From a virus: a stretch of DNA of 36,691 nt. This document shows positions 2,281 through 33,351 of this stretch, in pieces. The translations under genes and the position numbers were made by a program. A model generated the notes under the pieces. The model was not told the origin of the DNA. It made no database searches and worked only from the letters and a program-made list of their open reading frames with translations. Within the stretch, counting starts at the first letter, position 1, and every line of letters starts with the position of its first letter. The stretch is from positions 1-36,691 of IMG/VR virus record IMGVR_UViG_3300013125_000020; one strand, 5' to 3'.

Positions 2281-3543
2281 TTATCCAACGTAAATGCCAA
2301 GAGGAATCTTATTCAATACGCTCATTGTCTTTTCTGCCGTATCTGCTTGCATCTCGGCTAATTTCTGATAGGTTAGTTCATCAAGGATTTTCTTTAGCTC
2401 TTCTCGCAGATCTTTTACCTCTTCTTTGCCCTCAGTCAACAATTCCGCGCCATTTAGGGTCAGTTCATTACCTGGAATTGGAATTGAACGAAGCTTTGAG
2501 CGAGTATATCCCATTCGCATCTTGCAGAGAGCCAGAGAGAACCTTCGAATCCAATGCTTACCAATTGCATTGATTGCTTCATAAGGAAGATTGTCAAATG
2601 GTAACGTTCCAAGGTTGTTAACACCATGCATTCCGTTTTCTCGTTCACCATCCTCGAATGATCCTTTTGGAATAATGAACTCAAACCACATTTTACTTGT
2701 TGCAAATGGTTCTCTTGGAATTGGAAAAATTCTAAGCTTGTTGTTTCTCAACTCATACGAATAATGAGCCAAACGAGTGTACAAAGCATCACTATAATGC
2801 ATCGCCTGAAGCTTATTTTGCCACACAGGAACCAACTGGAACGTTGAAGCACTTGCAAACTGACCATAGCTTGACAACGCTCCAACTGTATCAAGACCTC
2901 CCAAACCATAATAACCAAAATATCTCCAAGTTGCTCTCGGAGTCTTGTAAAATACACGTTTTACACGAATCAATGTGTTTGTTGCGCCGTCAGCAAACGA
3001 TCCACTCCAAGGACAATCAGCATTTAGACTTGCAGAATACAAGATTTGCTGTAAATCATAGTCTTGTTTATCAATTTCCACGTCAAAAGAGGCTGAATAG
3101 ACAGTCTGTGTGCCTCCCATTGATAATTCTGCCGAATATCCTTCAGCCGTTCTTCGCATATAGCCAAAATCAAAACGAGGATAGGTTAAATTTGCTCCTT
3201 CTGGACCGTCAACAACGGTTCCTTCGTGATCAAATGAGGCTGTTGGGCTTCCAAGAGCCTGCATAAGCACGTTTTTGCCTTGATGAAGGTTGAGAATATA
3301 AGAATATTCTGTAGTTGCACGTTCATAGCTCTCATAAACTTGCTTTTCAGTTAATTCTTGATCGAGAATTTCACCACCAAGCTCATTGTAGACATATGAA
3401 ACCTGTGCAGCAGCACCACTTAGGAATTCTGTAGAAGAAGCGTATACACCTAGAGACAGTGCATCAACAACATTCTCAATTGTGCCTGTAGCTGGCAGGA
3501 TATATTGATTATAGCTCGATTGTGGAAGATAAGAAGGTGGCAT
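2281..3543 (-). CDS. Virion structural protein, candidate neck or head-completion protein
   Basis: A protein of 420 residues rich in Tyr, Ser and Ala. The C-terminal third carries a distinctive block (NAIGKHWIRRFSLAL, IPIPGNELTLNGAELL, a charged coiled-coil-like helix EEVKDLREELKKILDEL, then IPLGIYVG at the end). I associate this arrangement with a structural protein conserved in large T4-like phages. In T4 the neck genes follow the head genes, so a neck role is plausible but not shown. The ATG at 3543 has GGAG about 11 bases upstream; that sequence lies in one arm of a 10-bp inverted repeat (3552-3595), which could mask the ribosome site. It is the first gene of the run 3543-1, after the accessory cassette. 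Confidence 0.72.
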   Translation of the reverse strand: MPPSYLPQSSYNQYILPATGTIENVVDALSLGVYASSTEFLSGAAAQVSYVYNELGGEILDQELTEKQVYESYERATTEYSYILNLHQGKNVLMQALGSPTASFDHEGTVVDGPEGANLTYPRFDFGYMRRTAEGYSAELSMGGTQTVYSASFDVEIDKQDYDLQQILYSASLNADCPWSGSFADGATNTLIRVKRVFYKTPRATWRYFGYYGLGGLDTVGALSSYGQFASASTFQLVPVWQNKLQAMHYSDALYTRLAHYSYELRNNKLRIFPIPREPFATSKMWFEFIIPKGSFEDGERENGMHGVNNLGTLPFDNLPYEAINAIGKHWIRRFSLALCKMRMGYTRSKLRSIPIPGNELTLNGAELLTEGKEEVKDLREELKKILDELTYQKLAEMQADTAEKTMSVLNKIPLGIYVG

Positions 3544-3551
3544 ATTTGGGA

Positions 3552-3595
3552 TTTCTCCAACAGTACTGTTCAGTCATAAATAGGCGTTGGAGAAA
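3552..3595 (-). promoter_or_regulatory. Hairpin that could sequester the ribosome binding site of the 420-aa virion gene
   Basis: A perfect 10-bp inverted repeat: TTTCTCCAAC at 3552-3561 and GTTGGAGAAA at 3586-3595, with a 24-base loop. In the minus-strand transcript the promoter-proximal arm reads TTTCTCCAAC and the distal arm GTTGGAGAAA. The distal arm contains GGAG, the only Shine-Dalgarno-like element upstream of ATG 3543. No U-tract follows, so a terminator is unlikely. Translational control or RNA processing fits better. Confidence 0.5.
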
Positions 3596-3612: not shown

Positions 3613-3903
3613 CTAGTAATTGTAATAATCTAGCTTTCCGCTTGACATCGCATAATTTACGATTATCGTTACGCCAGAATTGAGATCTATACAGGGAGCA
3701 CTGTAGTTAGTACCAAATTTCTTAACTTCGTCGACCACTTGAACCAACAAATATCGATCTTTTAATACTTTTCTATGTGGCTCAAACGTGGTACTATCAA
3801 AAATCGTAGGACCAAGCTCTTGAAGTCGATATAACTCGCCAGTCTTAACCGTTTTGAACGATTCTTTATCAAGAATCGGCAAACTATCAAAATCGGAATT
3901 CAT
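3613..3903 (-). CDS. Small protein of the four-gene cassette (fourth)
   Basis: A protein of 96 residues beginning MNSDFDSLPILDKESF. It has the segment VKTGELYRLQELG, which resembles [LV]-x-[VS]-G-[DE]-L-x-[RV] segments in the three genes upstream and suggests a small SH3-like beta barrel. The rest is beta-rich (RYLLVQVVDEV, VTIIVNYAM). ATG 3903 overlaps the preceding stop in ATGA. The gene stops with TAG, followed by a 69-base spacer holding the hairpin before the next gene. No catalytic motif, signal peptide or membrane segment is visible. Function is unknown; small phage SH3-like proteins often bind other proteins. Confidence 0.6.
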   Translation of the reverse strand: MNSDFDSLPILDKESFKTVKTGELYRLQELGPTIFDSTTFEPHRKVLKDRYLLVQVVDEVKKFGTNYSAPCIDLNSGVTIIVNYAMSSGKLDYYNY

Positions 3904-4118
3904 GACAAGATCTTTCTAATTCGTCCACGCCGAATGTCATTATTTAACTCTCTAATAGAGAAACAATCAACATAATACTTTTCCATACTAAGAAAGTAAT
4001 TGTGTGCAACACAACCATCAGCCGAAGGCATAAACCCTAAGTACAACCACAATAATCCTCGACTCTGTACGCCAAACTTATAAATACTTCCAACTTCTAA
4101 GTCTCTGTATGATTTCAT
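3900..4118 (-). CDS. Small protein of the four-gene cassette (third)
   Basis: A protein of 72 residues if started at ATG 4118, which overlaps the preceding stop as ATGA like its neighbours. A longer frame to 4178 exists but would run 64 bases into the upstream gene. It begins MKSYRDLEVGSIYKFG, again giving the [LV]-x-V-G-x-[IL]-Y motif near the N-terminus, followed by hydrophobic strands (GLLWLYLGFM) and a basic tail (RRGRIRKIL). A small beta-barrel fold is inferred. Function is unknown. Confidence 0.58.
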   Translation of the reverse strand: MKSYRDLEVGSIYKFGVQSRGLLWLYLGFMPSADGCVAHNYFLSMEKYYVDCFSIRELNNDIRRGRIRKILS

Positions 4119-4441
4119 AGCTTTTCTGTATATCCAGTACAGCCTGGACCAACATTGAACGTATAAATTCGATTCCAATCCATCACATAAGCATCAACAG
4201 TATAAGTTACCCATCGTTTGCCAGGATACATCATTGTAAGACCGTCAAGTGTACGGTGCTCTTGAACATCTTGCTTAACGTTGGTTACTTTTGGATTTTC
4301 GAGAAGCAGCAAAAGAAGCGTATCAGAATAAGGCACTCTCACATCTGAATTCCAATTAGTCGTTTCCCATCGACACAAATCACCAGACTTTAACTGTTCT
4401 GCCGTCATTTCATTCAAAACTGGAAGTGGACTGCTGTTCAT
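4115..4441 (-). CDS. Small protein of the four-gene cassette (second)
   Basis: A protein of 108 residues beginning MNSSPLPVLNEMTAEQLKSG. It shares the N-terminal pattern MNS-x-x-x-x-LP-[VI]-L with the fourth gene (MNSDFDSLPIL), which supports duplication within the cassette. The segment LKSGDLCRW matches the common L-x-[VST]-G-[DES] turn. The later part is beta-rich (KRWVTYTVDAYVMDW). The start overlaps the upstream stop by 4 bases. Probably an SH3-like small protein; partner and role unknown. Confidence 0.6.
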   Translation of the reverse strand: MNSSPLPVLNEMTAEQLKSGDLCRWETTNWNSDVRVPYSDTLLLLLLENPKVTNVKQDVQEHRTLDGLTMMYPGKRWVTYTVDAYVMDWNRIYTFNVGPGCTGYTEKL

Positions 4442-4761
4442 GCTACAAACCTAACACTTGCCATATCTGTTTCTGTAAATGGCTGTTCAAACCAACCTTC
4501 AGTTTGTCTTTCGATATCCCAAAGAGACAACGAAAGCATATAGGGACCACGCCACATAATCTGAGTGATAATTCCGACAATCTCTGGTAATATATGATCA
4601 TCTGAAGCCCAGGCTGGTCCTTTCAAAACATATCGACGATTTAGCCAACCACGATGATCTCTGTATAAGAATATTACTCCAGCTTTTGTTACACAAACTA
4701 GATCGCCAACCTTGAGTTTGGTCCCAAAACGATTCTTTTTTTTGGTGTTCTTTGTCTTCAC
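4438..4761 (-). CDS. Small basic SH3-like protein, first gene of the cassette
   Basis: A protein of 107 residues with a very basic N-terminus (KTKNTKKKNRFGTK) followed by LKVGDLVCVTKAGVIFLYRD, typical of a small SH3-like barrel. The only plausible start is GTG 4761: an in-frame stop lies 4 codons upstream and the next Met is too far in. There is no good Shine-Dalgarno sequence. Instead a sigma70-like promoter (4768-4796) would put the transcript start about at the GTG, so a leaderless mRNA is possible. The basic tail could bind nucleic acid, but that is inference. Confidence 0.6.
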   Translation of the reverse strand: MKTKNTKKKNRFGTKLKVGDLVCVTKAGVIFLYRDHRGWLNRRYVLKGPAWASDDHILPEIVGIITQIMWRGPYMLSLSLWDIERQTEGWFEQPFTETDMASVRFVA

Positions 4762-4767
4762 GTAAAC

Positions 4768-4796
4768 AGTTTACACTTACCAAGATCGATTGTCAA
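4768..4796 (-). promoter_or_regulatory. Sigma70-like promoter with a palindrome over the -10 element
   Basis: On the minus strand: TTGACA (4796-4791), a 17-base spacer, then TAAACT (4773-4768). The -35 hexamer is a consensus match and overlaps the stop codon of the transglycosylase gene. A perfect 13-bp palindrome GTAAACTGTTTAC (4774-4762) covers the -10 element and reaches to within one base of the GTG start at 4761. This is operator-like geometry. The predicted transcript start is at or near that GTG. Confidence 0.6.
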
Positions 4797-5317
4797 GACA
4801 AATCGGAAGCCCTCAACGTTCGAAGAAACCTAGAAATAGATGCATATACTTGCTGTTGATAATCGAGTCCGTGATTCTTCTTTCTGCAAAGTTTGCTCTT
4901 TAAATTCGATCCGCAATTGAAATGGGCTGTATAGTTCACCTTGTCGCTTCTGCGCCATTCGACCAATCGAGCAATTCCTTCTTTAAGGTTCTCTTCAGAG
5001 TCATATAGGTTTGGCGTTCGATCTTTGTTTTGCTTGTGAGTAGCATATGTATTGCCCTTCTTTGGCCATCGAACCTGCATTAGTCCAAGATCGCGATCCA
5101 TTCCAGTTGCCAATCTCTTAATCTTCGATTCTTTCCAGACAATCGCAGCAACAACGACTGGATATGGAAACTGTTGTTCGATTGATTCTCTTGCAATTTG
5201 ATAACTGATTGTGATCATCTCGGAAAACGTTGGACACATCGATTGCTTGATTGCATATTGACTTTGAGTACACGAGAAAAATAGAAACAAAAATACCTTA
5301 ACAAAACTCGGTACCAT
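4793..5317 (-). CDS. Lytic transglycosylase-like peptidoglycan-degrading enzyme with N-terminal signal
   Basis: A protein of 174 residues. The hydrophobic N-terminus (VKVFLFLFFSC, residues 6-16) looks like a signal peptide or anchor; the Cys at 16 gives only an imperfect lipobox. The catalytic region shows VVAAIVWKESKI with Glu 63 in the usual place, followed by the GLMQV motif (residues 78-82), the hallmark of soluble lytic transglycosylases of the GH23/SLT type. These cleave the glycan strand of peptidoglycan with formation of anhydro-muramic acid. A late FNCG segment matches the usual Asn-Cys/Ala-Gly turn. It has its own strong promoter and a good AAGGAGG site 7 bases before the ATG. It could act in lysis, or in cell-wall modification soon after infection. 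Confidence 0.85.
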   Translation of the reverse strand: MVPSFVKVFLFLFFSCTQSQYAIKQSMCPTFSEMITISYQIARESIEQQFPYPVVVAAIVWKESKIKRLATGMDRDLGLMQVRWPKKGNTYATHKQNKDRTPNLYDSEENLKEGIARLVEWRRSDKVNYTAHFNCGSNLKSKLCRKKNHGLDYQQQVYASISRFLRTLRASDLS

Positions 5318-5374: not shown

Positions 5375-5411
5375 GCCTATTTAATACGGCACTGTATAAG
5401 GAATTTTAAAA

Positions 5412-5455
5412 ATGAGCCAAGGATTTTACGTTAATTTAACCCAAGAGTAGAAGGA
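5412..5455 (+). other. Out-of-frame start segment of the plus-strand fibre gene
   Basis: ATG 5412 has a good AAGGA ribosome site 9 bases upstream and encodes MSQGFYVNLTQE, then TAG at 5448-5450. The long downstream frame is in the -1 phase and reads RVEGLEDQV from 5444. Joining CAA (5442-5444) to AGA by a one-base backward step gives MSQGFYVNLTQRVEGLEDQV, a natural-looking fibre N-terminus. The site TTAACCCAAGAG is not a classical slippery heptamer, so a true mutation or an assembly error is as likely as programmed frameshifting. Confidence 0.5.
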
Positions 5456-6334
5456 TTGGAAGATCAAGTACTTGCACTTGGAGACATTCCGGCTTTATCT
5501 GAATCAATGGCACAAGCGCTAGAAGACGTAGCTATACTTTCAGAATCGTTGGCAGAAGTTGATTTCGTTGCTGTGTCATCATCATTGGATGAACTATGGA
5601 CTGATTATAGTTTAACATCCGGTTCTCTTGATAATGTTTCTTCTTCTCTCGCAAATGATTATTATACAAAAACTGAGTCGGATATTAACTATTTTCCATT
5701 GACCGGTTCTCATGAATCCTTGCAAGGTCTTCTCGGTGGAACAACAAGTGAACATTATCATTTAACAGAAAATGAACATACAACATTCCAGAATATATCA
5801 AGTTCATATTTTATCCCTATGTGGGATGATCTTGTTATATCTGCGGTAGCTGTTAACCCGCCAGGATCAGTTGGTCCAGCAGTTATCAATACAACAAATT
5901 CTACGCTTGACTTTGAAAATGGCTCAACGCAAAGATGTGATTTTGTATGGCAATTGCCTCATGGTTATATGACTGGAAGTGCAGCAGAATTTCACATTCA
6001 CTACAAATGCTCAGACGCAAATACCGGAAATGTGACTTGGAATTATGCATATCGATGGATTGAGATAAACGGAGTTATTCCAGCTTTTACCATTGGTTCG
6101 ATATCGATGCCCATCCCCACGCCAGGAGCTTCAAATAAACATTATCTATTTGAGATTATAGGAACAGGTTCGCTGACTGGAGTCGGGATGGGGATATCGA
6201 GCATTATTCAAGTACAGCTATCAAGAGTCGGTGGGACTGATACATATAACGGAAATGTCCAAATGCTTTCAGCAGACATTCACTTCCAAAAAGATACGAA
6301 TGGTTCGTATCAAGAATTGGTTAAAAGACCATAA
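5456..6334 (+). CDS. Tail- or head-fibre-like structural protein, only gene on the plus strand
   Basis: An open frame of 292 residues if TTG 5456 is used, though the natural start is probably ATG 5412 in another frame. The N-terminal part is a repetitive low-complexity helix (ALEDVAILSESLAEVDF). Residues about 95-110 contain LLGGTTSEHYHLTENEHTTF, the L-x-G-G-x(4)-Y/H-H-L-T motif common in phage fibre and receptor-binding proteins. A C-terminal beta sandwich follows, with FHIHYKCSD and LSADIHFQKD. It is divergent from the transglycosylase gene and convergent with the homing endonuclease gene, which ends one base away. Orientation against all neighbours and association with mobile genes suggest it arrived as a module. 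Confidence 0.72.
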   Translation: MEDQVLALGDIPALSESMAQALEDVAILSESLAEVDFVAVSSSLDELWTDYSLTSGSLDNVSSSLANDYYTKTESDINYFPLTGSHESLQGLLGGTTSEHYHLTENEHTTFQNISSSYFIPMWDDLVISAVAVNPPGSVGPAVINTTNSTLDFENGSTQRCDFVWQLPHGYMTGSAAEFHIHYKCSDANTGNVTWNYAYRWIEINGVIPAFTIGSISMPIPTPGASNKHYLFEIIGTGSLTGVGMGISSIIQVQLSRVGGTDTYNGNVQMLSADIHFQKDTNGSYQELVKRP

Positions 6335-6335
6335 A

Positions 6336-7781
6336 TCAAAGCTTCAATCGATATCTTTTAGAACCACAACCGTAGATTTTACTGACATTTGCCTCAAGAG
6401 CAAGCACTTTTTCTGATTTCTCTTTTGTCGCTCTAAACGAAAACCTTGGATATCTTTCTGCTCCATCAGTATACCAATAATCTAGCACAGACTCTTGCAA
6501 TTCTTCAAAACCGTTACGAACATATACTGAGCCATCTCCAAACCGAAGATCTGCATAAGTGATTAAACTGGTAAAATCGTTTTCGACTGCGTATGCTTTA
6601 GCTTTTTCAAGTAATTTAGCAAAAGAACCATTAACAATGGTATCAAGCTTGTTTGAAAATCTGGAGATCTCTAAAGCATTTGGATACTTTGCTTTTTGTT
6701 GTGGTACTCGAAGACCAAGAGCAGCCACAACAGAATTATCATCATCGATAAGACCAAAAACAATTCTTGAATGAGTCCAGCCAGAAATATGCGTTAAATC
6801 AAAAAACTGCTTCGCTTCAGCAGTCGTCAATTGTCTGATTTCACAGTTACGAGCAGATACACGATTCGTTAGCACCCCCAGGCGATAAGCAATCATTGAT
6901 TTTAAAATTGGCTGTTTATCCCGCCACTCATCAGAAAAAATATGAAACAATCTGATTCCTTTGGCAGCACAGGCGACGGTTTTGTCTTTGTGATAGGATT
7001 TTGATTTACTTTCCTCTGTGTGCCAGTATAGACCATTATATTCGATAGCTAGCTTCTTTTCTGGTACATAGAGATCTAATTCAACTGGAGGTATAACTTG
7101 CTTAGAATTTTCAATCAATTCACAAGCGCAAACAGATCTTACGAAATCTTTTACTTCTTGCTCTTCTCTTGAATTTTTCTGAATCGGATAACATACTTTG
7201 CACTTTGATTGACGTTCAAACGCTTGCAAAGTCTTTTTATCGACAGTACCGCACTTTGTACACTGCAATTGCAAACATTGATGTTGTCTGGAAAGGTATT
7301 CAGAGTAGGGCGTCAGCAGCACAAATTCTTTCTTTTTCTCTTCATTCGGTAAACTACATCTGGTTAAAGTGCGCGCATAGTATTCTTCTTCAGTAAGAAG
7401 CTTTTGATTACGAAGCTTTTCGATTGTTTCTTCAGAATGATGTTTGCCAAAAAAATGATTGCCTTCACCTTTAAAAGATTCTGCTTGCTTACGCAATATT
7501 TCATTTGTTTCTTTAGTCTGACCTTTGTTCCATGACGGAAGCTTTCCAACTTCTTTACAGGATTTGGCTCTAGCTAAATTTGCGTGTTCTTTGCAATATG
7601 TTCGAAATTGAAATTGAACATAGCGCGTCGTCTTACCGCATTCAGGACAAACCGGACGCTTTCCGTCATAAAGATATTTCACAGTATACGCTTCGGTTGT
7701 CATTTTATGATCTGTCATAATGTGTCTGACCAGTTCCGGAACAGAATCAAGCACCTTGTTACATGCTTTACATTTTTCCAT
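6336..7781 (-). CDS. Homing endonuclease of the EDxHD (Vsr-like) type with zinc motifs and NUMOD3
   Basis: A protein of 481 residues from ATG 7781 (GGAG 7 bases upstream); a TTG two codons earlier is less likely. N-terminal Cys/His clusters (CKACNKV...HIMTDH and CPECGKT...CKEH) look like zinc fingers. A NUMOD3-like DNA-binding segment GNHFFGKHHSEETIEKL follows, then a further zinc ribbon (CTKCG...CKVCY). The nuclease core reads ELDLYVPEKKLAIEYNGLYW then His, with HIFSDEW downstream. This matches the Glu-Asp...His layout of the I-Bth0305I/EDxHD family related to the Vsr mismatch endonuclease. Such freestanding genes cut a phage site and spread by repair. It sits 3' of the capsid gene behind its own promoter. 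Confidence 0.82.
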   Translation of the reverse strand: MEKCKACNKVLDSVPELVRHIMTDHKMTTEAYTVKYLYDGKRPVCPECGKTTRYVQFQFRTYCKEHANLARAKSCKEVGKLPSWNKGQTKETNEILRKQAESFKGEGNHFFGKHHSEETIEKLRNQKLLTEEEYYARTLTRCSLPNEEKKKEFVLLTPYSEYLSRQHQCLQLQCTKCGTVDKKTLQAFERQSKCKVCYPIQKNSREEQEVKDFVRSVCACELIENSKQVIPPVELDLYVPEKKLAIEYNGLYWHTEESKSKSYHKDKTVACAAKGIRLFHIFSDEWRDKQPILKSMIAYRLGVLTNRVSARNCEIRQLTTAEAKQFFDLTHISGWTHSRIVFGLIDDDNSVVAALGLRVPQQKAKYPNALEISRFSNKLDTIVNGSFAKLLEKAKAYAVENDFTSLITYADLRFGDGSVYVRNGFEELQESVLDYWYTDGAERYPRFSFRATKEKSEKVLALEANVSKIYGCGSKRYRLKL

Positions 7782-7846
7782 TTTCAATCTCCTGTTTGTC
7801 GTACCAAGTCATTACCATATATCCATCTTCCGTGGATTGTAGCTAC

Positions 7847-7884: not shown

Positions 7885-8790
7885 CTATTTTCGTCGAGGG
7901 CGTACTTGAATTGGGCGATAATCCGGATCGAAATACGTATCATTTCTAAGCAATTTATTTAGAGCAGCAATTTGAATACCATAGATTTTAGAAATTTCTG
8001 CCGTATTAGGTCTATTGTCTGGATTACCATATTTTTGACGAATCTCTTTAGCGACATCTATCGAAAGTTTTGGCTGGTTATCAACAACTTTAATTGGTGG
8101 AGAATACTCTTTGTCGTACCAAGTCTTATTTTCAAGCATGATAGAAATTCCTGGCCAATTGTATTTTTCTTTTAATTGCGTTGCTGTCATTTCTTCAGAA
8201 GAATATAGCTTTCTAGCCTCTCTCACTTCTTCCCAGGTATGTTTTGCCACTGCACTTTTTTCTCCAACTTGAAGTCCTCGCAATCTTGCCCTTTGCTCTT
8301 CAGTTCTTTTACGTCCTTTATTTGCCTCGCTTATCTTTCGTTTTGTTTCGTCAGTATGATGCTTGCCATAAAAATAATTACCAGAGCCGGAATTCGCCTC
8401 GCTAATTCGTCTTTTAGCGTCTTCTGGCATAACTCGACCCTTGTTGAGATTAGAAATCTGCTCTTTCGTTTCCGAAGAGTGATGAAAACCTAATGTATTT
8501 CCAGCTACTTTGCAAATATTGTATCCGCGCTCACCATCATAGCTGCAATATTGATCGATATATTTTTGCTCAAACAATAAAAGCCAAGATTCTTCAACAT
8601 ATTCAACGGTTTCAAAAACAAACGCTTTTTCTCCGTACTTATTCCAAGCATGTTGAAGGTGAACGTTATGATGATTTCCTTTTTGCAGATGACTCCAATG
8701 TTCTCGCTGTCGATTTTTTAAATTTACAGAACTTCCAATATAAACTTTTCCATTGATCAAATTTCGAATAATGTATACTCCACTTTCCAT
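7885..8790 (-). CDS. GIY-YIG homing endonuclease with NUMOD3 repeats
   Basis: A protein of 301 residues. The N-terminus has the family signature GVYIIRNLINGKVYIGSS, with the two Tyr-Ile strands and the Arg of LKNRQREH. A conserved Glu region (FEQKYIDQY) and ERGYNICKVAGNTLG follow, typical of phage Seg-type enzymes. Two NUMOD3 DNA-binding repeats follow (HHSSETKEQISNLNKGR and GKHHTDETKRKISEANKGR), then a basic helix-turn-helix-like tail. Freestanding enzymes of this kind nick or cut a site in related phage genomes and are copied in. It begins after the terminator that closes the capsid operon, with a strong ribosome site GGAGGG, and ends with TAG. Confidence 0.92.
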   Translation of the reverse strand: MESGVYIIRNLINGKVYIGSSVNLKNRQREHWSHLQKGNHHNVHLQHAWNKYGEKAFVFETVEYVEESWLLLFEQKYIDQYCSYDGERGYNICKVAGNTLGFHHSSETKEQISNLNKGRVMPEDAKRRISEANSGSGNYFYGKHHTDETKRKISEANKGRKRTEEQRARLRGLQVGEKSAVAKHTWEEVREARKLYSSEEMTATQLKEKYNWPGISIMLENKTWYDKEYSPPIKVVDNQPKLSIDVAKEIRQKYGNPDNRPNTAEISKIYGIQIAALNKLLRNDTYFDPDYRPIQVRPRRK

Positions 8791-8855
8791 TTAAATCCCT
8801 CCACTACAGTTTATCCATCTTCAAATATATATAGTGCGGGATTTACACAAAAAAC

Positions 8856-8879
8856 AAAAAAGCCGTCTTTCGACGGCTC
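8856..8879 (-). terminator. Rho-independent terminator after the major capsid gene
   Basis: The minus strand reads AGCCGTC (8878-8872), loop GAAA, GACGGCT (8867-8861), then a T-run TTTTTG. This is a 7-bp GC-rich stem with a GNRA-type tetraloop. It starts about 25 bases after the capsid stop codon, so it ends the head transcript and separates it from the homing endonuclease genes. Confidence 0.9.
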
Positions 8880-8903
8880 TTCTGCATCAATTAGATTGAT
8901 AGA

Positions 8904-10613
8904 TTACACAAGATCTCTGACCACGCATAATCCGTACATATCCGAACGTACCATTTTCTTTCCATATCGAGTCATAACCATTTTACGAGGTGTAAAATCT
9001 TCCACTCCGAAGATGGTTGGTGTAACTTGCAGAGGCACATAAGGTGCATACACATAACCACTCTCAAGGAACGAAGAACCCTTACGACCAATGAGAATCA
9101 AGTTACGAGGGAAGTAAGGGCTAACCCACACGTCCCACTTCTTGTTCAGACTACCGGTTGACATTACGGAAACAGTGCCCTTCTCGTCGTCATGAGTGAT
9201 GTTAGCTCGGAAGCCAGCAGTCATCTCAAGAACGTTGGCAATCTCGGGAGAGGTCACGAGGAAGTTTGCACCACCACGAAGAGTCTTACGGTGAATACGA
9301 GCAGAAACATCGTTGATTGTCTCAACTAGTGTCTCATACCACATGCTGACGTTACCAGTGAAGTCGCCAACACCAGTTACAGCACCAGTCTCACGATTCA
9401 CAAACTGACCAGGGATACGGCTCCAGTATAGTGTACCAGCGGTAGCACCAACTACTAGATCTTCTAGAATTTCGTTGTTGACTTCTAGCGCAACGTACTC
9501 AGAGAGAACGCCGGTTAGCTCAACTTCGATATCGGTGTTGTGATAAGCATCGATATCCTGACCCAATTCTGGTGTCCACTTAGCCTTGAGCTTCTTGGTC
9601 ACAGCACGAATGTCAATCGAGTTGACCTTGATGTCGATCTCAGGAAGAGTCTGATCAGTATCAGAGAATGTTGATTCGAATGGCCATTGTGAAGTTCCCT
9701 TCATTGCACCAAGCGCATCAGCAGTCGTAAACTGATCCTTGTAGGGATAAACGAAGCTGCCAGTATCAATAGAACCAGTACCAGTTACACGAGCAATCGT
9801 ATAAATCTGACGATTGGTACGATTGTAAATATCGGTTAGGCGTCGAACGCTAAACACGCCATTCGCTTCTGTACCAGACTCTAGATCACAAGCTACTAGG
9901 TTATCAAGGTTTACCTTGTTCCACGTGGCTTCTGATAGTTGCAGAACGATAGGAATGTACTTGCCAACATCATCCTGGGTTACGTCAACGTCAAAACGCA
10001 CAGCAGCCTTATCGGAATCAGTTAGGGCAGTACCTACTGTTGAACCGGTCCATAGGAATACGTACTCATTGTCACCTAGATTATCAGGATCGGTTGTTCT
10101 CTGATCGGTTAGTGACTGTGAACCTGTTGGGCTTGAATAACCGTTGGCGAAGTTATAGAAACCACGCTCGGCATTCTTGCCTGACAGATCAACACCGGTT
10201 GTGATATCACGGGCAGTCACACCACCACCGTAGACAGAAGTTGCAGCGGCAGCACCGGCATTCAGCTTCTCATGAGTGTGAGTGAAGTCCATGAAGAAAA
10301 TCAAACCGTTTGGTAGACTCATTGGCTGTACGGATACTAGATCTTGAGCAATAAGATTACCGAAAATACGACGAACGATTGGGAAGGCGACAGCCGCAAA
10401 GCCCTCAACTTCACCAGACTGCATTGTCGAAGCTTCACGAAGCAGTTCCTTGGCTTGGTTCTCAAGTAGACGTGACATATTCTCTCGCTCACGCTCTGAC
10501 TTTAGACCTTCCAAAAGACCAGTACGTTCCCACTTCTTTAGAAGTGCAGCACCTTCTTTACGGACAGAACGGTGAGTCACGCCTTCTGTTAGTTTCTGTA
10601 GAATTGAACTCAT
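8904..10613 (-). CDS. gp23: Major capsid protein, T4 gp23-like
   Basis: A protein of 569 residues, close to T4 gp23 (521). The diagnostic block is near residue 80: FPIVRRIFGNLIAQDLVSVQ followed by PMSLPNG, matching gp23 VRRAIPNLIAFDICGVQPM. The C-terminus (FRANITHDD, WDVWVSPYFPRN, GYVYAPYVPLQ, TPTIFGVEDFTPRK) is also typical of the family. The N-terminal ~60 residues are a helical, charged delta region. In T4-like phages the gp21 protease removes it; LLREAST around residues 57-63 contains a L-x-x-E-type site that could be the cut. AAGGAG precedes the ATG. The gene follows the scaffold gene and is followed by a strong terminator, as expected for the most highly expressed structural gene. Confidence 0.96.
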   Translation of the reverse strand: MSSILQKLTEGVTHRSVRKEGAALLKKWERTGLLEGLKSERERENMSRLLENQAKELLREASTMQSGEVEGFAAVAFPIVRRIFGNLIAQDLVSVQPMSLPNGLIFFMDFTHTHEKLNAGAAAATSVYGGGVTARDITTGVDLSGKNAERGFYNFANGYSSPTGSQSLTDQRTTDPDNLGDNEYVFLWTGSTVGTALTDSDKAAVRFDVDVTQDDVGKYIPIVLQLSEATWNKVNLDNLVACDLESGTEANGVFSVRRLTDIYNRTNRQIYTIARVTGTGSIDTGSFVYPYKDQFTTADALGAMKGTSQWPFESTFSDTDQTLPEIDIKVNSIDIRAVTKKLKAKWTPELGQDIDAYHNTDIEVELTGVLSEYVALEVNNEILEDLVVGATAGTLYWSRIPGQFVNRETGAVTGVGDFTGNVSMWYETLVETINDVSARIHRKTLRGGANFLVTSPEIANVLEMTAGFRANITHDDEKGTVSVMSTGSLNKKWDVWVSPYFPRNLILIGRKGSSFLESGYVYAPYVPLQVTPTIFGVEDFTPRKMVMTRYGKKMVRSDMYGLCVVRDLV

Positions 10614-12579: not shown

Positions 12580-13830
12580 CTACCTAGAAAATTTGTTTAA
12601 CGCTACATTAACCGCTTCAAGAATCATTTCTGAAAGCTGATTATTCTTTTTCTTTAGATTTCGCACACACCGAATCACTTTATCGCCGTTTTGATATGTT
12701 CCGTCTGTTTCTTGACAGTCTGAACCAGTCTTTTTGTGCATTGCCAACGAAGCAATATTGTTGTGTCGTACATGCCCAAGAACTGTGTCATATCCACTCT
12801 TTCGAGCATAATCATCAACATAGTACATTGCTCGTTCACCAAGACCTTGCCTTCGATGAGCCTTATCGATTCCCATCTTATTGAAGAGAAGATGCTCTGG
12901 ATATTTGTCCATAATCATAAAACCACAGATATTGTCTCCATCAACCATCTTCATGACGACGTGTTTTTTTGTATCGATAAAAAATTTGTTCCACGTGTTT
13001 TGAGAATACGGAAACTCAAAAACTTCGTGATCAACTTTCATAAGCCCTGGAAGATCTTGTTTGGTCGCTTCTATAAAAGTGACGTGACTATTGTTCTCTT
13101 CGCTTAATTCAGATCTGCGATGAAAGTTCTTCTCGGGAATGAATACTTCGTAATTGTCCTTACTGAATATTCTATGCCCACTTCTCCTAGAAGGATCTGT
13201 CTTTGTTTTCTTTCCGTAATCCGTATAATTTTTCGCCGCATCAACATTTTTTAATGCATTGTACTTTGTTAGAATTTTCTCATATGTATCAGTACTGACT
13301 AATACCCAACCATTTTTTCTATCATAAATTTTTGCATCCTTTGGTAACGCAACAGTCAAATATGTCCACAACAAACCAGAATAATTAAATACTCCACAAT
13401 CGCCAGGATTAACAACCAAAAATCGTTCAACATAATTTTCCGGAAAAGCATAAAAACCATGCATTTCTGGCGGTTGATGACCGGTATTTTTCGAACTTCT
13501 ATAATAAGCATTTTTCTTGAAATTTTTTCCACCACAACGTACAAACTTTAACGTTTTAAAAGGAGAAAAATTTGGTTTATATTGAATGGAAATCTTTTCT
13601 AAATCTTGTGAAGCTTGACTAGATTCATCAAGTTCATCAGCCAATCCAGCAGCCTTTAACTTGCTATAGTACTTTGGATCTTCCGAAAGGTGATCGAGCG
13701 CAATTTCAGCAGCTTTTCTAGGGTCGGACGCATGCTCCATTTCGACCTTGATTCCCATCTTTAATTGAACAGGATCAACGTCCTTTTTGGAAAGCTTATC
13801 GCCTTTGCCACCTTTGAGAAAATTTGACAT
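12580..13830 (-). CDS. DUF5661, unknown middle domain and GNAT acetyltransferase in one protein
   Basis: A protein of 416 residues in three parts. Residues 16-66 match DUF5661 (DVDPVQLKMGIKVEMEH, then ALDHLSEDPKYYSKL). Residues 90-240 contain LKFVRCGG, HGFYAFPENYVERFLV, WTYLTV and YEVFIPEKN, a conserved phage domain I cannot name. Residues 250-391 are a GNAT fold: FIEATKQDLPGLMKVD, FMIMDKYPEHLLFNKMGIDK and the acetyl-CoA loop HRRQGLGER (325-333), then NNIASLAMHKKTG. The last 20 residues (NNQLSEMILEAVNVALNKF) resemble the amphipathic helix at the N-termini of many small proteins here. GNATs move acetyl groups to amines; the target is unknown. The gene may encode an effector packaged in the head, but this is speculation. 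Confidence 0.8.
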   Translation of the reverse strand: MSNFLKGGKGDKLSKKDVDPVQLKMGIKVEMEHASDPRKAAEIALDHLSEDPKYYSKLKAAGLADELDESSQASQDLEKISIQYKPNFSPFKTLKFVRCGGKNFKKNAYYRSSKNTGHQPPEMHGFYAFPENYVERFLVVNPGDCGVFNYSGLLWTYLTVALPKDAKIYDRKNGWVLVSTDTYEKILTKYNALKNVDAAKNYTDYGKKTKTDPSRRSGHRIFSKDNYEVFIPEKNFHRRSELSEENNSHVTFIEATKQDLPGLMKVDHEVFEFPYSQNTWNKFFIDTKKHVVMKMVDGDNICGFMIMDKYPEHLLFNKMGIDKAHRRQGLGERAMYYVDDYARKSGYDTVLGHVRHNNIASLAMHKKTGSDCQETDGTYQNGDKVIRCVRNLKKKNNQLSEMILEAVNVALNKFSR

Positions 13831-15021: not shown

Positions 15022-15573
15022 TTAGATTGAATTTTCTCGAACATATCGCTGATAGGCTTTAGTCACCAATATGTCCAAGCCGTCTTCGCCATCAGATGTA
15101 AAAGCAATATCCTGATCAGATAAAACTTGTGCCGCTACAATTCGCATCTTTCGACTAATCATTCCCAATTCACCCGGAGGCGACTGTCTAAAACTGTGAC
15201 AAGCGGCTCTAAATCCAGGGTCTTTCAGCAGCTTATCTGCCGGATCTTTCTTTCCAAATCCCAAAAATCCTTCCTCCAATGCAAACTCTTTTGGTCCATG
15301 ATGCTTTGCAAAGTCTTGTACTTGTCGAATTGCTTCTTGAACATGCGAGCGAACAATCTGCTCAATCTTGTCAGATAATGATTCATGCTCATATTCACCT
15401 GGATAATCAGAATGCTGAGAAACATATGTATCGATCAAAGTATCAGTCAATGTTTCAATGCACTGTTCAATTTGTGGATTCGGAACTGTCTCATCTTCAT
15501 TTACAAAAGGCAGATCAAGATCGGCAATCTCTTTAAGGATGATTTTCTTTAATACTGCTTCAGTTAATTTCAT
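15022..15573 (-). CDS. Small protein with tag-like N-terminus MKLTEAVLKK
   Basis: A protein of 183 residues. The first 19 residues (MKLTEAVLKKIILKEIADL) are a clear member of the repeated amphipathic N-terminal motif. The remainder is helical and acidic, with LTDTLIDTYVSQHSDYPGEY, a His/Lys region and a C-terminal segment with SDGEDGLDILVTKAYQ. No family recognised. ATG 15573 overlaps the previous stop in ATGA. Together with 15570-15878 it follows the protease gene directly, a position where T4 has core and scaffold genes. A role as an internal head protein is plausible but unproven. Confidence 0.65.
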   Translation of the reverse strand: MKLTEAVLKKIILKEIADLDLPFVNEDETVPNPQIEQCIETLTDTLIDTYVSQHSDYPGEYEHESLSDKIEQIVRSHVQEAIRQVQDFAKHHGPKEFALEEGFLGFGKKDPADKLLKDPGFRAACHSFRQSPPGELGMISRKMRIVAAQVLSDQDIAFTSDGEDGLDILVTKAYQRYVRENSI

Positions 15574-15878
15574 GATGCTGGCACCACGTCATATAGTTTT
15601 TGATTTTTAAAATCGATCTTGTTTTGCACGAAGAACTTTTGCAAAGCCTGTCGTTCGTTCGACGCATTCACTTTGGCTACCTTTTTTCCATAAGATACGA
15701 TTTGCCAAGACGAAACATCATTTGCACTAGCATCTTGCTGATTTTTAAGCCAATCTACTTCTCTATTAACAGAATGCCCGTTGCCAGAGCTAGCATAAGT
15801 GTCAGATGGAAAATCTCTCCAAGTTTCCTTGATGATCTCTCTAATAATTTGCTTTAATTGAGATTCAGTTAATTTCAT
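15570..15878 (-). CDS. Small protein with tag-like N-terminus MKLTESQLKQ
   Basis: A protein of 102 residues. MKLTESQLKQIIREIIKE is the most typical copy of the recurrent motif; IIRE fits a [LI]-x-x-E prohead protease site. The rest is a short linker (Ser/Gly/Asn) and a compact alpha/beta piece, SWQIVSYGKKVAKVNASN then ERQALQKFFVQNKIDF, which could be a small independent fold. Both ends use ATGA overlaps, with the protease gene upstream and 15022-15573 downstream. Function unknown; possibly cargo delivered into the head. Confidence 0.65.
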   Translation of the reverse strand: MKLTESQLKQIIREIIKETWRDFPSDTYASSGNGHSVNREVDWLKNQQDASANDVSSWQIVSYGKKVAKVNASNERQALQKFFVQNKIDFKNQKLYDVVPAS

Positions 15879-17608
15879 TTATTGTTTACTCCGTTCAAAA
15901 TTTTGATCATCATTCGATTAATTCGATCTGCTTTTGTATATACGTCGCTAAAACGAACTTTTGATTCATGCAACATTGTCGGCTTCATGAAAGCTCCGGT
16001 AGTTGATGGTTCCGATACAATATCAAAACAAACAAGCTCAAAATCATCTTCAACCATCAAACCTTCACTGGTTTCTGTTAGCGTTCCAAGACCTCTGGAA
16101 GAGATTCCAACCTGAACGCCATCACGCACTAATGCTTCCAGAATTTTACCGGAAGGCGTGGAAAGCACTTTAAGCGTCCCCATAACGTCCTTTCCGTTCC
16201 ACCAAGTTCTTGTGATCATATGAGAAGCATTTTTTAATTCGACTAATTCTGAGGTCGGGTGATCACAATTATGGGTAATAAATATTCTACCATTTTTACG
16301 AGCAATCCAAGTTTTGTTCTCAACCGTTACACAGTATACATTATCGTCATATTCCACTTCGTTAATATTCAAAAATTTCTTATAAAAATAAGAACGATTT
16401 GTAACACTTTCAGACGAAATGTACAATTTTCTACAATTCTTGGTTTCAATCAACCTACCCTCAATCATCCGATCTTTTTGTGTTCTCTCGGACATTACAG
16501 AACCACTACCCAATTTCAGAAAGATTTCAGACACATCATTTGCTAATCGATAAGAAGTTGTGTGCAACTCCCTCATCAATTCGCCTTTTTTGTTGTGTCG
16601 ATTTCTGCCATCGCCCTTAAGCATCCATTCGAGCAAAATTTCAAGTCTACGAACGTCCCATTCTTTAACTTCCTCTGGAATGTATTTCTCCCACGATTTC
16701 CCCAATGGTCTTACATAATCGAATACGTCTTTGTTTACAACAGAAAAAGAAGTCTTATTGGAAATTTTATTTGTAGTCTCATAAATTCTCTCGCTAGCGA
16801 ATAATGCATTAAATAATTTTCGAATTTCATTTTTGGTGTCTTCTTTTGTTTGAACTACAAAAACTCTCCAACCTTCTGCCCAATTTTTCTTGTCATAAGA
16901 AGTAAAACCCTCTGCTAAATAAATACCAAGAAAAGCTGCCCAAAGATCAGCATCATACGTATGAGAACCAATTGTAACAGTGTCAGCTTGCTTTCCATTC
17001 CACTTCATGCCGCCACGTCTAAAATATGAATGTTGAAGTCCCGAATCTGTCTCGAAATTCTCAGCAAACTCTCCAGCAGTGATTTCAAACGACTTATCGT
17101 ATCGATCCCACAAAATCATTTTATGCTCTGGAGTGAGCAACATATCAATCTTGTTCTTGTTATGAATATGAATCATTTTTCCTTGATGCAGTCGTTCAGT
17201 CTTGATTAAGACTGGCTGAAGTTGCATTTCTTCCGTGTCGACATTAAATGTATAAATTTCTTCATTTTCTTTAACGTCAACAATCGATTTCCAGCCATCC
17301 TTCGTCAAGCACTCTGTTTCCCCATCAACACACTCACCTAACGCTCGATGTTCATTGATCATTTTCTGATAAACGTCCATCTCTCGCTTAAGTGTTTCAT
17401 ATGGATATACTCGACCATTACCATTCTTGGCATCTGCTCTTTGCATAATGCCAGTAAGATAAACAGCTTTATTGTTTTTGATATCAAGCTTCTCGGCTTC
17501 AGTTAGTAAATCTTGGCAAACGCCGCCAGGACAAAGACCAAACCACTCTGTCAGAAGAAACTTGCCAGCTACTTGATCTGTTATCTGGCTTTTAATGTTT
17601 TCCATCAA
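15875..17608 (-). CDS. gp21: Prohead maturation protease (T4 gp21-like) interrupted by an intein
   Basis: A precursor of 577 residues. The exteins (1-92 and 448-577) form a gp21-like protease of about 222 residues, the expected length (T4 gp21: 212). Catalytic landmarks are CDHP (His 450), GISSRGLG (Ser 503/504) and FDIVSEPS (Asp 529), consistent with the His-Ser-Asp arrangement of the T4/HK97 prohead protease group. NGNGRVYPYETLKREM is also typical. The enzyme acts inside the prohead, cutting scaffold, capsid N-terminus and internal proteins at hydrophobic-x-x-Glu sites. The intein sits two residues before the catalytic His, so the protease should be inactive until splicing. Both ends overlap neighbours. 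Confidence 0.93.
   Translation of the reverse strand: MMENIKSQITDQVAGKFLLTEWFGLCPGGVCQDLLTEAEKLDIKNNKAVYLTGIMQRADAKNGNGRVYPYETLKREMDVYQKMINEHRALGECVDGETECLTKDGWKSIVDVKENEEIYTFNVDTEEMQLQPVLIKTERLHQGKMIHIHNKNKIDMLLTPEHKMILWDRYDKSFEITAGEFAENFETDSGLQHSYFRRGGMKWNGKQADTVTIGSHTYDADLWAAFLGIYLAEGFTSYDKKNWAEGWRVFVVQTKEDTKNEIRKLFNALFASERIYETTNKISNKTSFSVVNKDVFDYVRPLGKSWEKYIPEEVKEWDVRRLEILLEWMLKGDGRNRHNKKGELMRELHTTSYRLANDVSEIFLKLGSGSVMSERTQKDRMIEGRLIETKNCRKLYISSESVTNRSYFYKKFLNINEVEYDDNVYCVTVENKTWIARKNGRIFITHNCDHPTSELVELKNASHMITRTWWNGKDVMGTLKVLSTPSGKILEALVRDGVQVGISSRGLGTLTETSEGLMVEDDFELVCFDIVSEPSTTGAFMKPTMLHESKVRFSDVYTKADRINRMMIKILNGVNNK
16268..17332 (-). mobile_element. Intein with LAGLIDADG homing endonuclease in the prohead protease
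   Basis: Precursor residues 93-447 (355 residues). It starts with Cys in GE/CVDGETECLT and ends ITHN/C, the standard block A and block G. Block B is DMLLTPEHK; block F is VYCVTVENKTWIA. The central part has two LAGLIDADG-type motifs, LGIYLAEGF (about 227-235) and EWMLKGDG (about 326-333), so it is a full homing intein. It is in frame with intact splice residues. Confidence 0.95.
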
Positions 17609-17813
17609 TTGTATATCCTAACTTTCGCAAACGTTGATTTATCCGCTCAATCTCTTGCACTTCAGATCGCACCCTAGCTCTCAAAGCCTGCATATATTCT
17701 GATAATTCAAGCGCGTTCATTGCCTGCCAAGAGTCTTTTTGATCGCTATCTTTCTTGACATCCTCAACTGCTTCGCGAATCATCTTCTTAAGAATTAATT
17801 CTGCCAGCTTCAT
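17592..17813 (-). CDS. Small protein with tag-like N-terminus MKLAELILKK
   Basis: A protein of 73 residues. The N-terminus MKLAELILKKMIREAVEDV fits the recurrent motif, with MIRE-A as a possible protease site. The rest is a single charged coiled coil (LSEYMQALRARVRSEVQEIE) ending KLGYTIDGKH. It overlaps the protease start by 17 bases, and T4 has small core proteins (gp67, gp68) just before gene 21, so a prohead-core role fits its position and helical nature. Direct sequence similarity to these is not evident. Confidence 0.65.
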   Translation of the reverse strand: MKLAELILKKMIREAVEDVKKDSDQKDSWQAMNALELSEYMQALRARVRSEVQEIERINQRLRKLGYTIDGKH

Positions 17814-26170: not shown

Positions 26171-26473
26171 TTATTCCTCCCACCTTGGAGCTTGTTGAAC
26201 TTTCTTAATTGGCTGTCGAGCTACCCATTGTTTAAGCCCTACAGCATAGCCCTCTTCATAAGCCTTTTTCGCAGTACCACCCTTTAATCCACGAGAAACC
26301 GAATCATTCATTTCCTTGCCAACTGAACCATCAAGAATACCAGCCGAATAATACCTATCATATCCGTATAATTCTCCAGCTTCTTCATTAAGATGATCGT
26401 CGACGATTTCTTTCAAAGCCTCCTTGATTAGTACTGTTAGCTGTTCTTGCTTAAGATGGATCTTATCGTTCAT
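26171..26473 (-). CDS. Small protein with tag-like N-terminus
   Basis: A protein of 100 residues starting MNDKIHLKQEQLTVLIKEAL, which fits the recurrent motif; LIKE-A is a possible prohead protease site. The rest has ELYGYDRYYSAGILDGSVGK and GTAKKAYEEGYAVGLKQWVA, which could be a short helical hairpin. AAGGAA precedes the ATG. It follows the Mre11-Rad50 gene by about 55 bases without a gene. Function unknown, possibly an internal head protein. Confidence 0.62.
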   Translation of the reverse strand: MNDKIHLKQEQLTVLIKEALKEIVDDHLNEEAGELYGYDRYYSAGILDGSVGKEMNDSVSRGLKGGTAKKAYEEGYAVGLKQWVARQPIKKVQQAPRWEE

Positions 26474-32919: not shown

Positions 32920-33351
32920 TTAATCTCCCGTTCTATGTCCACCGGGCTCTGAATAAGAATTGCCATAAATCATTTCATTCTCATCACGATAGGAAGGTAC
33001 ATATTCTCTGGCTTTTGGTTTCTGAATTGTTGAAGCAATCTGTTTAACGTCAATCGACTTATTCAGTAAACCATCGCTCTTATCTCTCTTCGCTATTCTG
33101 GTATGAAAACTGACAAAAGCTGGAGCTAAGTCTAGATCTCTTGCAATCTTGTCAACAGAATCAGAAGTATTATCTGCCATAGCCATACGGATAATGCGTT
33201 CAAAAGCATCGATCATATCTGTGAATACCGATTCATCTTCAACGAATCTTTGAAGTTGCAACTTGATATGACGAATAATTTCTGGTTGCTTTTCTTGGGC
33301 TTGCTTAATGTGATCTTCGAAAGCCTCGTTTATCATCTTTTTAAGATTCAT
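32920..33351 (-). CDS. Small protein with tag-like N-terminus MNLKKMINEA
   Basis: A protein of 143 residues. The first 14 residues, MNLKKMINEAFEDH, are a short version of the recurrent motif with MINE-A. Residues 15-95 are helical and charged, with DSVDKIARDLDLAPAFVSFH that could form a helix-turn-helix. The C-terminal 40 residues are Tyr/Glu-rich and disordered. It lies between two paralogous structural genes. Function unknown. Confidence 0.55.
   Translation of the reverse strand: MNLKKMINEAFEDHIKQAQEKQPEIIRHIKLQLQRFVEDESVFTDMIDAFERIIRMAMADNTSDSVDKIARDLDLAPAFVSFHTRIAKRDKSDGLLNKSIDVKQIASTIQKPKAREYVPSYRDENEMIYGNSYSEPGGHRTGD

Follow-up and report, generated by a model that had tools for sequence, protein, structure and literature searches.

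A cassette of four small coupled genes behind a predicted sigma70-type promoter in the capsid-neck gap of a T4-related phage

Intergenic sites such as the gap between the capsid and neck genes are known homes of free-standing homing endonucleases (PMC2988022; PMC10448857), and segD of T4 lies at a place equivalent to that of the insert presented in this study (PMC2988022). The DNA analysed here, referred to as the window, spans the whole of an IMG/VR virus record (36,691 bases), which is probably a fragment of the genome. It carries T4-type structural genes, i.e., those for a gp23-like capsid protein, a gp20 portal, an S77 prohead protease, and a terminase. The closest cultured phages in a comparison of the capsid protein include Rhodothermus phage RM378, Flavobacterium phage immuto, and Microcystis phage Mel-JY01, and the virus is therefore placed in the Far-T4 neighbourhood (PMC4360716); on sequence grounds it is Far-T4-like, i.e., a distant relative of T4. 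The cassette of four tiny genes in its capsid-neck gap is a real accessory locus in a hotspot of a known kind, and an early-type promoter in such a late region is unusual.

The capsid-neck junction and its insert

The insert extends from the capsid terminator (8885-8854) to a late-type element near 3585 and, besides the cassette, comprises two homing-endonuclease genes, a lysin gene, and a fibre-like ORF. Its endonuclease ORFs lie between conserved genes, which is the arrangement of a free-standing homing-endonuclease locus, and the insert may be described as an insertion locus of the T4 seg type, whose endonucleases would be predicted to cleave and convert the empty allele. The features outside the cassette are as follows, from the capsid side to the neck side.

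8904 to 10613, minus strand: major capsid protein, gp23-like, flanking gene (PHROG 138, E = 5e-66)
8854 to 8885, minus strand: intrinsic terminator that follows the major capsid gene and forms the left edge of the insert; the same element is present in relatives
7885 to 8790, minus strand: GIY-YIG homing endonuclease with NUMOD3 (PF01541, E = 1.3e-9; NUMOD3, E = 5e-17), behind a late-like CTATATA
6336 to 7787, minus strand: homing-endonuclease-type gene (NUMOD3; PADLOC HEase), with sigma70-like TTTACA-16-TATACT upstream
5456 to 6334, plus strand: ORF that is fibre-like by sequence, without a Pfam match, on the opposite strand of the same insert
4793 to 5317, minus strand: SLT-type lytic transglycosylase (lysin; PF01464, E = 5e-6), with a probable lipoprotein signal and the SD sequence AAGGAGGT
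3559 to 3585, minus strand: late-promoter-like GCCTATTTATGA with palindrome AACAGTACTGTT, ahead of the neck gene and at the right edge of the insert
2281 to 3543, minus strand: conserved neck/adaptor gene, flanking gene (PHROG 211; 80 relatives)

The palindrome at the right edge is a perfect 12-bp repeat (3559-3570) located directly downstream of the late-type element, with TCTCCAAC and GTTGGAGA as its flanks. At 5411-5456 on the plus strand, the fibre-like ORF seems to start in another frame (ATG AGC CAA GGA TTT TAC...), which stops just short of the long ORF and is identical in the record L002; this seems to reflect a frameshift or an alternative start. L002 differs from the window by one mismatch in 6,122 bp and is the same virus, and therefore it does not provide independent conservation. 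Elsewhere in the window, the prohead protease gene (Peptidase_S77; 15875-17608) is split by an intein that contains a LAGLIDADG domain, and one protein encoded inside the head gene cluster (12580-13830) combines a DUF5661 domain with a GNAT acetyltransferase domain. Many small proteins share an N-terminal pattern resembling MK[LI]T..xLK.II[RK]E, both in the window (15022-15573, 15570-15878, 17592-17813, 26171-26473, and 32920-33351) and in relatives (L209:8919-9197, L193:4428-4685, L137:6830-7183, and L144:8883-9317). This N-terminus looks like a candidate prohead-targeting tag or propeptide, and we take its IxxE to resemble the cleavage rule of T4 gp21.

In 69 of the 75 relatives found via the neck gene, the capsid-neck gap is 27-133 bp long, with about 90 bp being typical. 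A typical gap consists of the terminator followed by a conserved CTA[TC]TTA, mostly about 32-41 nt and at most 46 nt ahead of the neck ATG, which is read as a predicted late promoter. Inserts occupy 32 of 70 junctions in the relatives found via the capsid gene and 35 of 124 distinct junctions in the pooled set, in which the other 89 have no insert over 200 bp and count as empty sites. Homing endonucleases are located in the gap in L040, L171, L176, L184, L185, and L197 (a remnant); fibre-, lectin- or decoration-like inserts in L006, L035, L134, and L173; and an SLT lysin in L152 (Pfam-confirmed), with look-alikes in L137, L145, L167, and L168. The third gene of the L040 insert (L040:7276-7959), beside two homing endonucleases, has a metalloprotease-like HELIH motif. 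Most inserts are virion-like, and a tiny-gene cassette comparable to that of the window was found in one relative only, L176. At the syntenic place, relatives lack the cassette itself, which answers a check proposed in an earlier note on this DNA. That note had seen the cassette as an accessory locus amid late structural genes, a description that agrees with the absence from relatives, the homing-endonuclease hotspot, and the parallels in L176 and L091 described below; an accessory locus that lies in a late region and has a sigma70-type promoter of its own is thus well supported.

The four genes and their products

The cassette comprises four ORFs of 107, 108, 72, and 96 aa, which run from 4761 to 3613 on the minus strand.

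4768 to 4796, minus strand: predicted sigma70-type promoter TTGACA-17-TAAACT (10/12); its -35 and the stop codon of the lysin gene upstream overlap
4762 to 4774, no strand assigned: perfect 13-bp palindrome GTAAACTGTTTAC over the -10, containing AACTGTTTA; frequency at chance
4438 to 4761, minus strand: g1, 107 aa, GTG start at the predicted +1, basic N-terminus, LKVGD
4115 to 4441, minus strand: g2, 108 aa, MNS..LP, LKSGD
3900 to 4118, minus strand: g3, 72 aa, LEVGS, weakest coding signal
3613 to 3903, minus strand: g4, 96 aa, MNS....LP, VKTGE

As had been noticed from the sequence, neighbouring genes overlap by ATGA (at 4441, 4118, and 3903), and the four products share a [LV]x[VST]G[DES] motif, in each case within residues 1-23. 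The motif is found in 4 of 4 cassette genes versus 0 of 34 other window genes, with a joint p of 5.7e-8 for its sharing (residue shuffling; post hoc). The MNS-x(4)-LP pattern ascribed to two products is present in g4, whereas g2 reads MNS-x(2)-LP; the N-termini of g2 and g4 align (BLAST E = 0.005), and the two are probable paralogues. The g1 product has a net charge of +6 and an N-terminus rich in lysine, and two of the g2-g4 products are acidic. Codon usage supports in-frame coding for g1, g2, and g4 and, weakly, for g3.

No family was found for g1-g4 in PADLOC (E 1), PHROGs and NCBIfam (E 10), or Pfam (E 1), and none of them matched known defence or anti-defence families. A single NCBIfam match of g4 to galactokinase (E = 0.11) is meaningless. 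Apart from the same virus, L002, no homologues of g1-g4 were found in phages (tblastn) or IMG/VR; bacterial genomes, which were searched with g1 only, contained no g1 homologue, and profile A1 matched nothing in the records of 18 relatives. A sequence search of the PDB returned nothing of note. A match of g3 in L084 was dropped because it is antisense to a polymerase-like ORF. The g4 model, built from a two-sequence input (pLDDT 65, pTM 0.52), is mostly beta and aligns with the N-terminal KOW/SH3-like domain of EF-P and eIF5A, although equally with unrelated kinase lobes; for EF-P, 51-56 residues align at 2.1-2.8 Å with Z of 5.1-5.9, i.e., below 8 and tied with kinase N-lobes. There is no sequence similarity between g4 and EF-P or eIF5A, and Foldseek returned no E-value below 0.09 for the model. 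The model suggests, as a lead of low confidence, that g4 is a KOW/SH3-like barrel.

Overlapping tiny KxGD genes are also present in L091 (the record of L027, IMGVR_UViG_3300028045_000008), behind the 17-bp-spaced sigma70-type promoter TTTACT-17-TATAAT; several near-identical TTKACT-17-TATAAT sites occur in this record. The window cassette shares with this array the N-terminal KxGD motif, the tiny size, and the tandem coupled genes, whereas the L091 array has about 16 genes, encodes shorter proteins, and is located outside the capsid-neck gap. About 14-17 tiny overlapping KxGD genes are observed at L091:6988-10731 (+) and also at 1356-1577, 2159-2371, and 3047-3328, and their products match no Pfam or PHROG family. 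The L091 profile ranks g1 best of 236 window ORFs (E = 0.097, below significance), and hhalign of the array against g1-g4 gives a probability of 13%, also below significance; a shared ancestry is therefore only suggested.

L176 (IMGVR_UViG_3300014208_000027) is a divergent relative, and its parallel arrangement is independent of the window virus. The same capsid-neck gap contains a nuclease and then seven tiny genes, which are preceded by TTGACA-17-TATACT (11/12) with the -35 over the upstream stop codon as in the window; in the late loci of relatives, sites of the 11/12 class have a density of only 0.014 per kb on the corresponding strand. One of the tiny proteins contains KVQSGDL, and there are paralogue pairs among the seven. 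Their products differ from those of the window, two being Tad2-like look-alikes and two zinc-ribbon-like. The former (L176:9693-9929 and 10326-10550) are paralogous and have a Tad2-like (PF11195) pattern, which was matched at E = 0.19, far below the family cut-off, in the first and recognized by eye in the second; zinc-ribbon-like pairs adjoin them. By its resemblance to Tad2-like anti-Thoeris proteins, the pair may serve as the sole, indirect functional hint for this type of cassette.

Predicted promoter, probable read-through, and palindrome

The promoter boxes reported upstream of g1 in the earlier note are present, with TTGACA at 4796-4791, a 17-nt spacer, and TAAACT at 4773-4768 on the minus strand; the boxes resemble TTGACA/TATAAT, the spacing is within 16-18, and a start is close by. 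The GTG at 4761 is 7 nt past the -10, and g1 therefore starts at the predicted +1; this GTG is the sole canonical start of g1 ahead of codon 47. It is also correct that the start lacks a ribosome site, as the longest SD match is AAG, versus at least 4 nt in 25 of the 38 window genes. A leaderless g1 mRNA is plausible, and the spacing fits it exactly.

A late core precedes seven window genes at -30 to -44, among them those for the lysin and the GIY-YIG endonuclease; a scan of the starts of window genes found none before the cassette. The -10 regions of the cassette, the lysin gene, and L176 each overlap a late-like string of ACT and T/A-rich sequence, and late or dual use is therefore possible from sequence. 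As the cassette -10 (TAAACT) is not a perfect match and the promoter overlaps AACTGTTTA, a string that differs from the late core at one position, the promoter could be a degenerate late element. A late promoter at AACTGTTTAC is less likely, as this string has one core mismatch and the RNA would begin inside g1. The cassette had been called self-contained, which goes too far: the -35 overlaps the lysin TGA, the 31-nt gap contains no terminator, and transcription of the lysin gene probably reads through into g1.

The cassette may even be expressed late only, by read-through from the late-type promoter of the lysin gene, with the sigma70 match and the GTG at +1 being coincidental, an account that we regard as unlikely. 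It is consistent with the short terminator-free gap and with the late-like core CTACATA at -30 of the lysin gene, which overlaps the lysin promoter TTGACT-17-TATACT. Promoter-like sites in the cassette's half of the window are, moreover, no commoner than in shuffles (44 versus 43.6). As a measure of the chance level of the promoter, the minus strand has 8 sites of at least 10/12 in 36.7 kb. On the other hand, the TTGACA is exact, the spacing is 17, and the promoter adjoins g1; minus-strand sites of at least 10/12 are located within 80 bp upstream of 3 of 38 starts only, each of which (7787, 5317, and 4761) belongs to an insert gene, and near none of 34 other genes. The L176 promoter parallel and the lack of an SD for translation of g1 off a long transcript also argue against late-only expression.

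It is improbable that the products are small late proteins that decorate the head or are packaged in it, as for most inserts at this junction. Many of the inserts in relatives are indeed fibre-, lectin- or decoration-like (the four named above), but the cassette proteins lack the head-targeting-like N-terminus (MKLTE..LK.IIRE) seen on several window proteins, and the cassette has neither a late core nor a family link.

Leaderless mRNAs of repressors are known, and in the PRM-cI message of lambda, as predicted for g1, the start codon is at the transcript start. By this precedent, the g1 product could be a basic protein that represses its own leaderless promoter through the palindrome, in an autoregulated switch like that of cI at PRM; we consider this very improbable. 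The 13-bp palindrome described over the -10 is perfect (6+1+6) and covers that box, and the charge and lysine-rich N-terminus of g1 are in line with the idea. However, perfect 6+1+6 repeats are as frequent in the window (12) as in shuffles (12.65), and the chance of overlap with one given promoter is about one to a few percent, so that the position of the palindrome is weak evidence. No second site with up to 2 mismatches to the palindrome was found at another position, no HTH or DNA-binding family was matched by g1 in Pfam or NCBIfam, and the g1 motif recurs in all of the g2-g4 products, of which two are acidic; the g1 model is unusable (pLDDT 43). The palindromic operator bound by the g1 product, as proposed earlier, is thus not borne out. 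Unlike lambda PRM-cI, g1 has GTG in place of ATG, no repressor domain was found in it, and the operator is unsupported.

That the ORFs are chance or non-coding sequence, for which the weak coding score of g3 and the lack of detected homologues might speak, is hardly credible, given that in each of the four genes codon scores are positive in frame 0 and negative in the remaining sense frames, that the motif is in 4 of 4 products, and that there are three ATGA junctions.

Proposed role and comparison with the T4 segD locus

The reading that we prefer, and hold with about even confidence as a whole, is that of an early-expressed accessory cassette of diverged KxGD paralogues, located in a homing-endonuclease hotspot and directed against the host. 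The cassette would have entered the capsid-neck hotspot of a Far-T4-like phage beside two homing endonucleases and a lysin, and g1-g4 would be diverged tandem paralogues encoding small KxGD proteins, which may be KOW/SH3-like barrels. Host RNA polymerase with sigma70 would use TTGACA-17-TAAACT early in infection; the g1 message would start at the GTG, possibly leaderless, and ATGA translational coupling would carry translation to g2-g4, with extra expression probably arising from late lysin-gene read-through. The products would most likely be small binding or inhibitor proteins acting on the host and, by analogy, could plausibly take part in takeover or anti-defence. A literature search for early anti-defence hotspots among structural genes found nothing.

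A wider proposal, which we make tentatively and with more doubt than belief, is that Far-T4 phages keep tandem families of KxGD mini-barrel genes, which diverge fast and have host-type promoters, as an evolvable arsenal for anti-defence or takeover, and that homing endonucleases carry copies into late-gene hotspots, resulting in early accessory cassettes inside the capsid operon. If true, the Far-T4 capsid-neck gap would be a predictable source of new accessory, possibly counter-defence, genes; homing endonucleases would be linked to the movement of early host-takeover cassettes into late operons; and an undescribed tandem mini-protein group would be named in abundant, mostly uncultured phages.

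The segD locus of T4 (genes 23-24, with rnlB, 24.2, 24.3, and hoc nearby) resembles the window in that a GIY-YIG endonuclease directly follows the capsid gene, lies in an intergenic gap of the structural region, and has small accessory genes close by. The two differ in that segD is antisense, whereas the window has two co-oriented endonucleases, and in that the window gap also contains a lysin and the four-gene KxGD cassette, which has a predicted promoter of its own.
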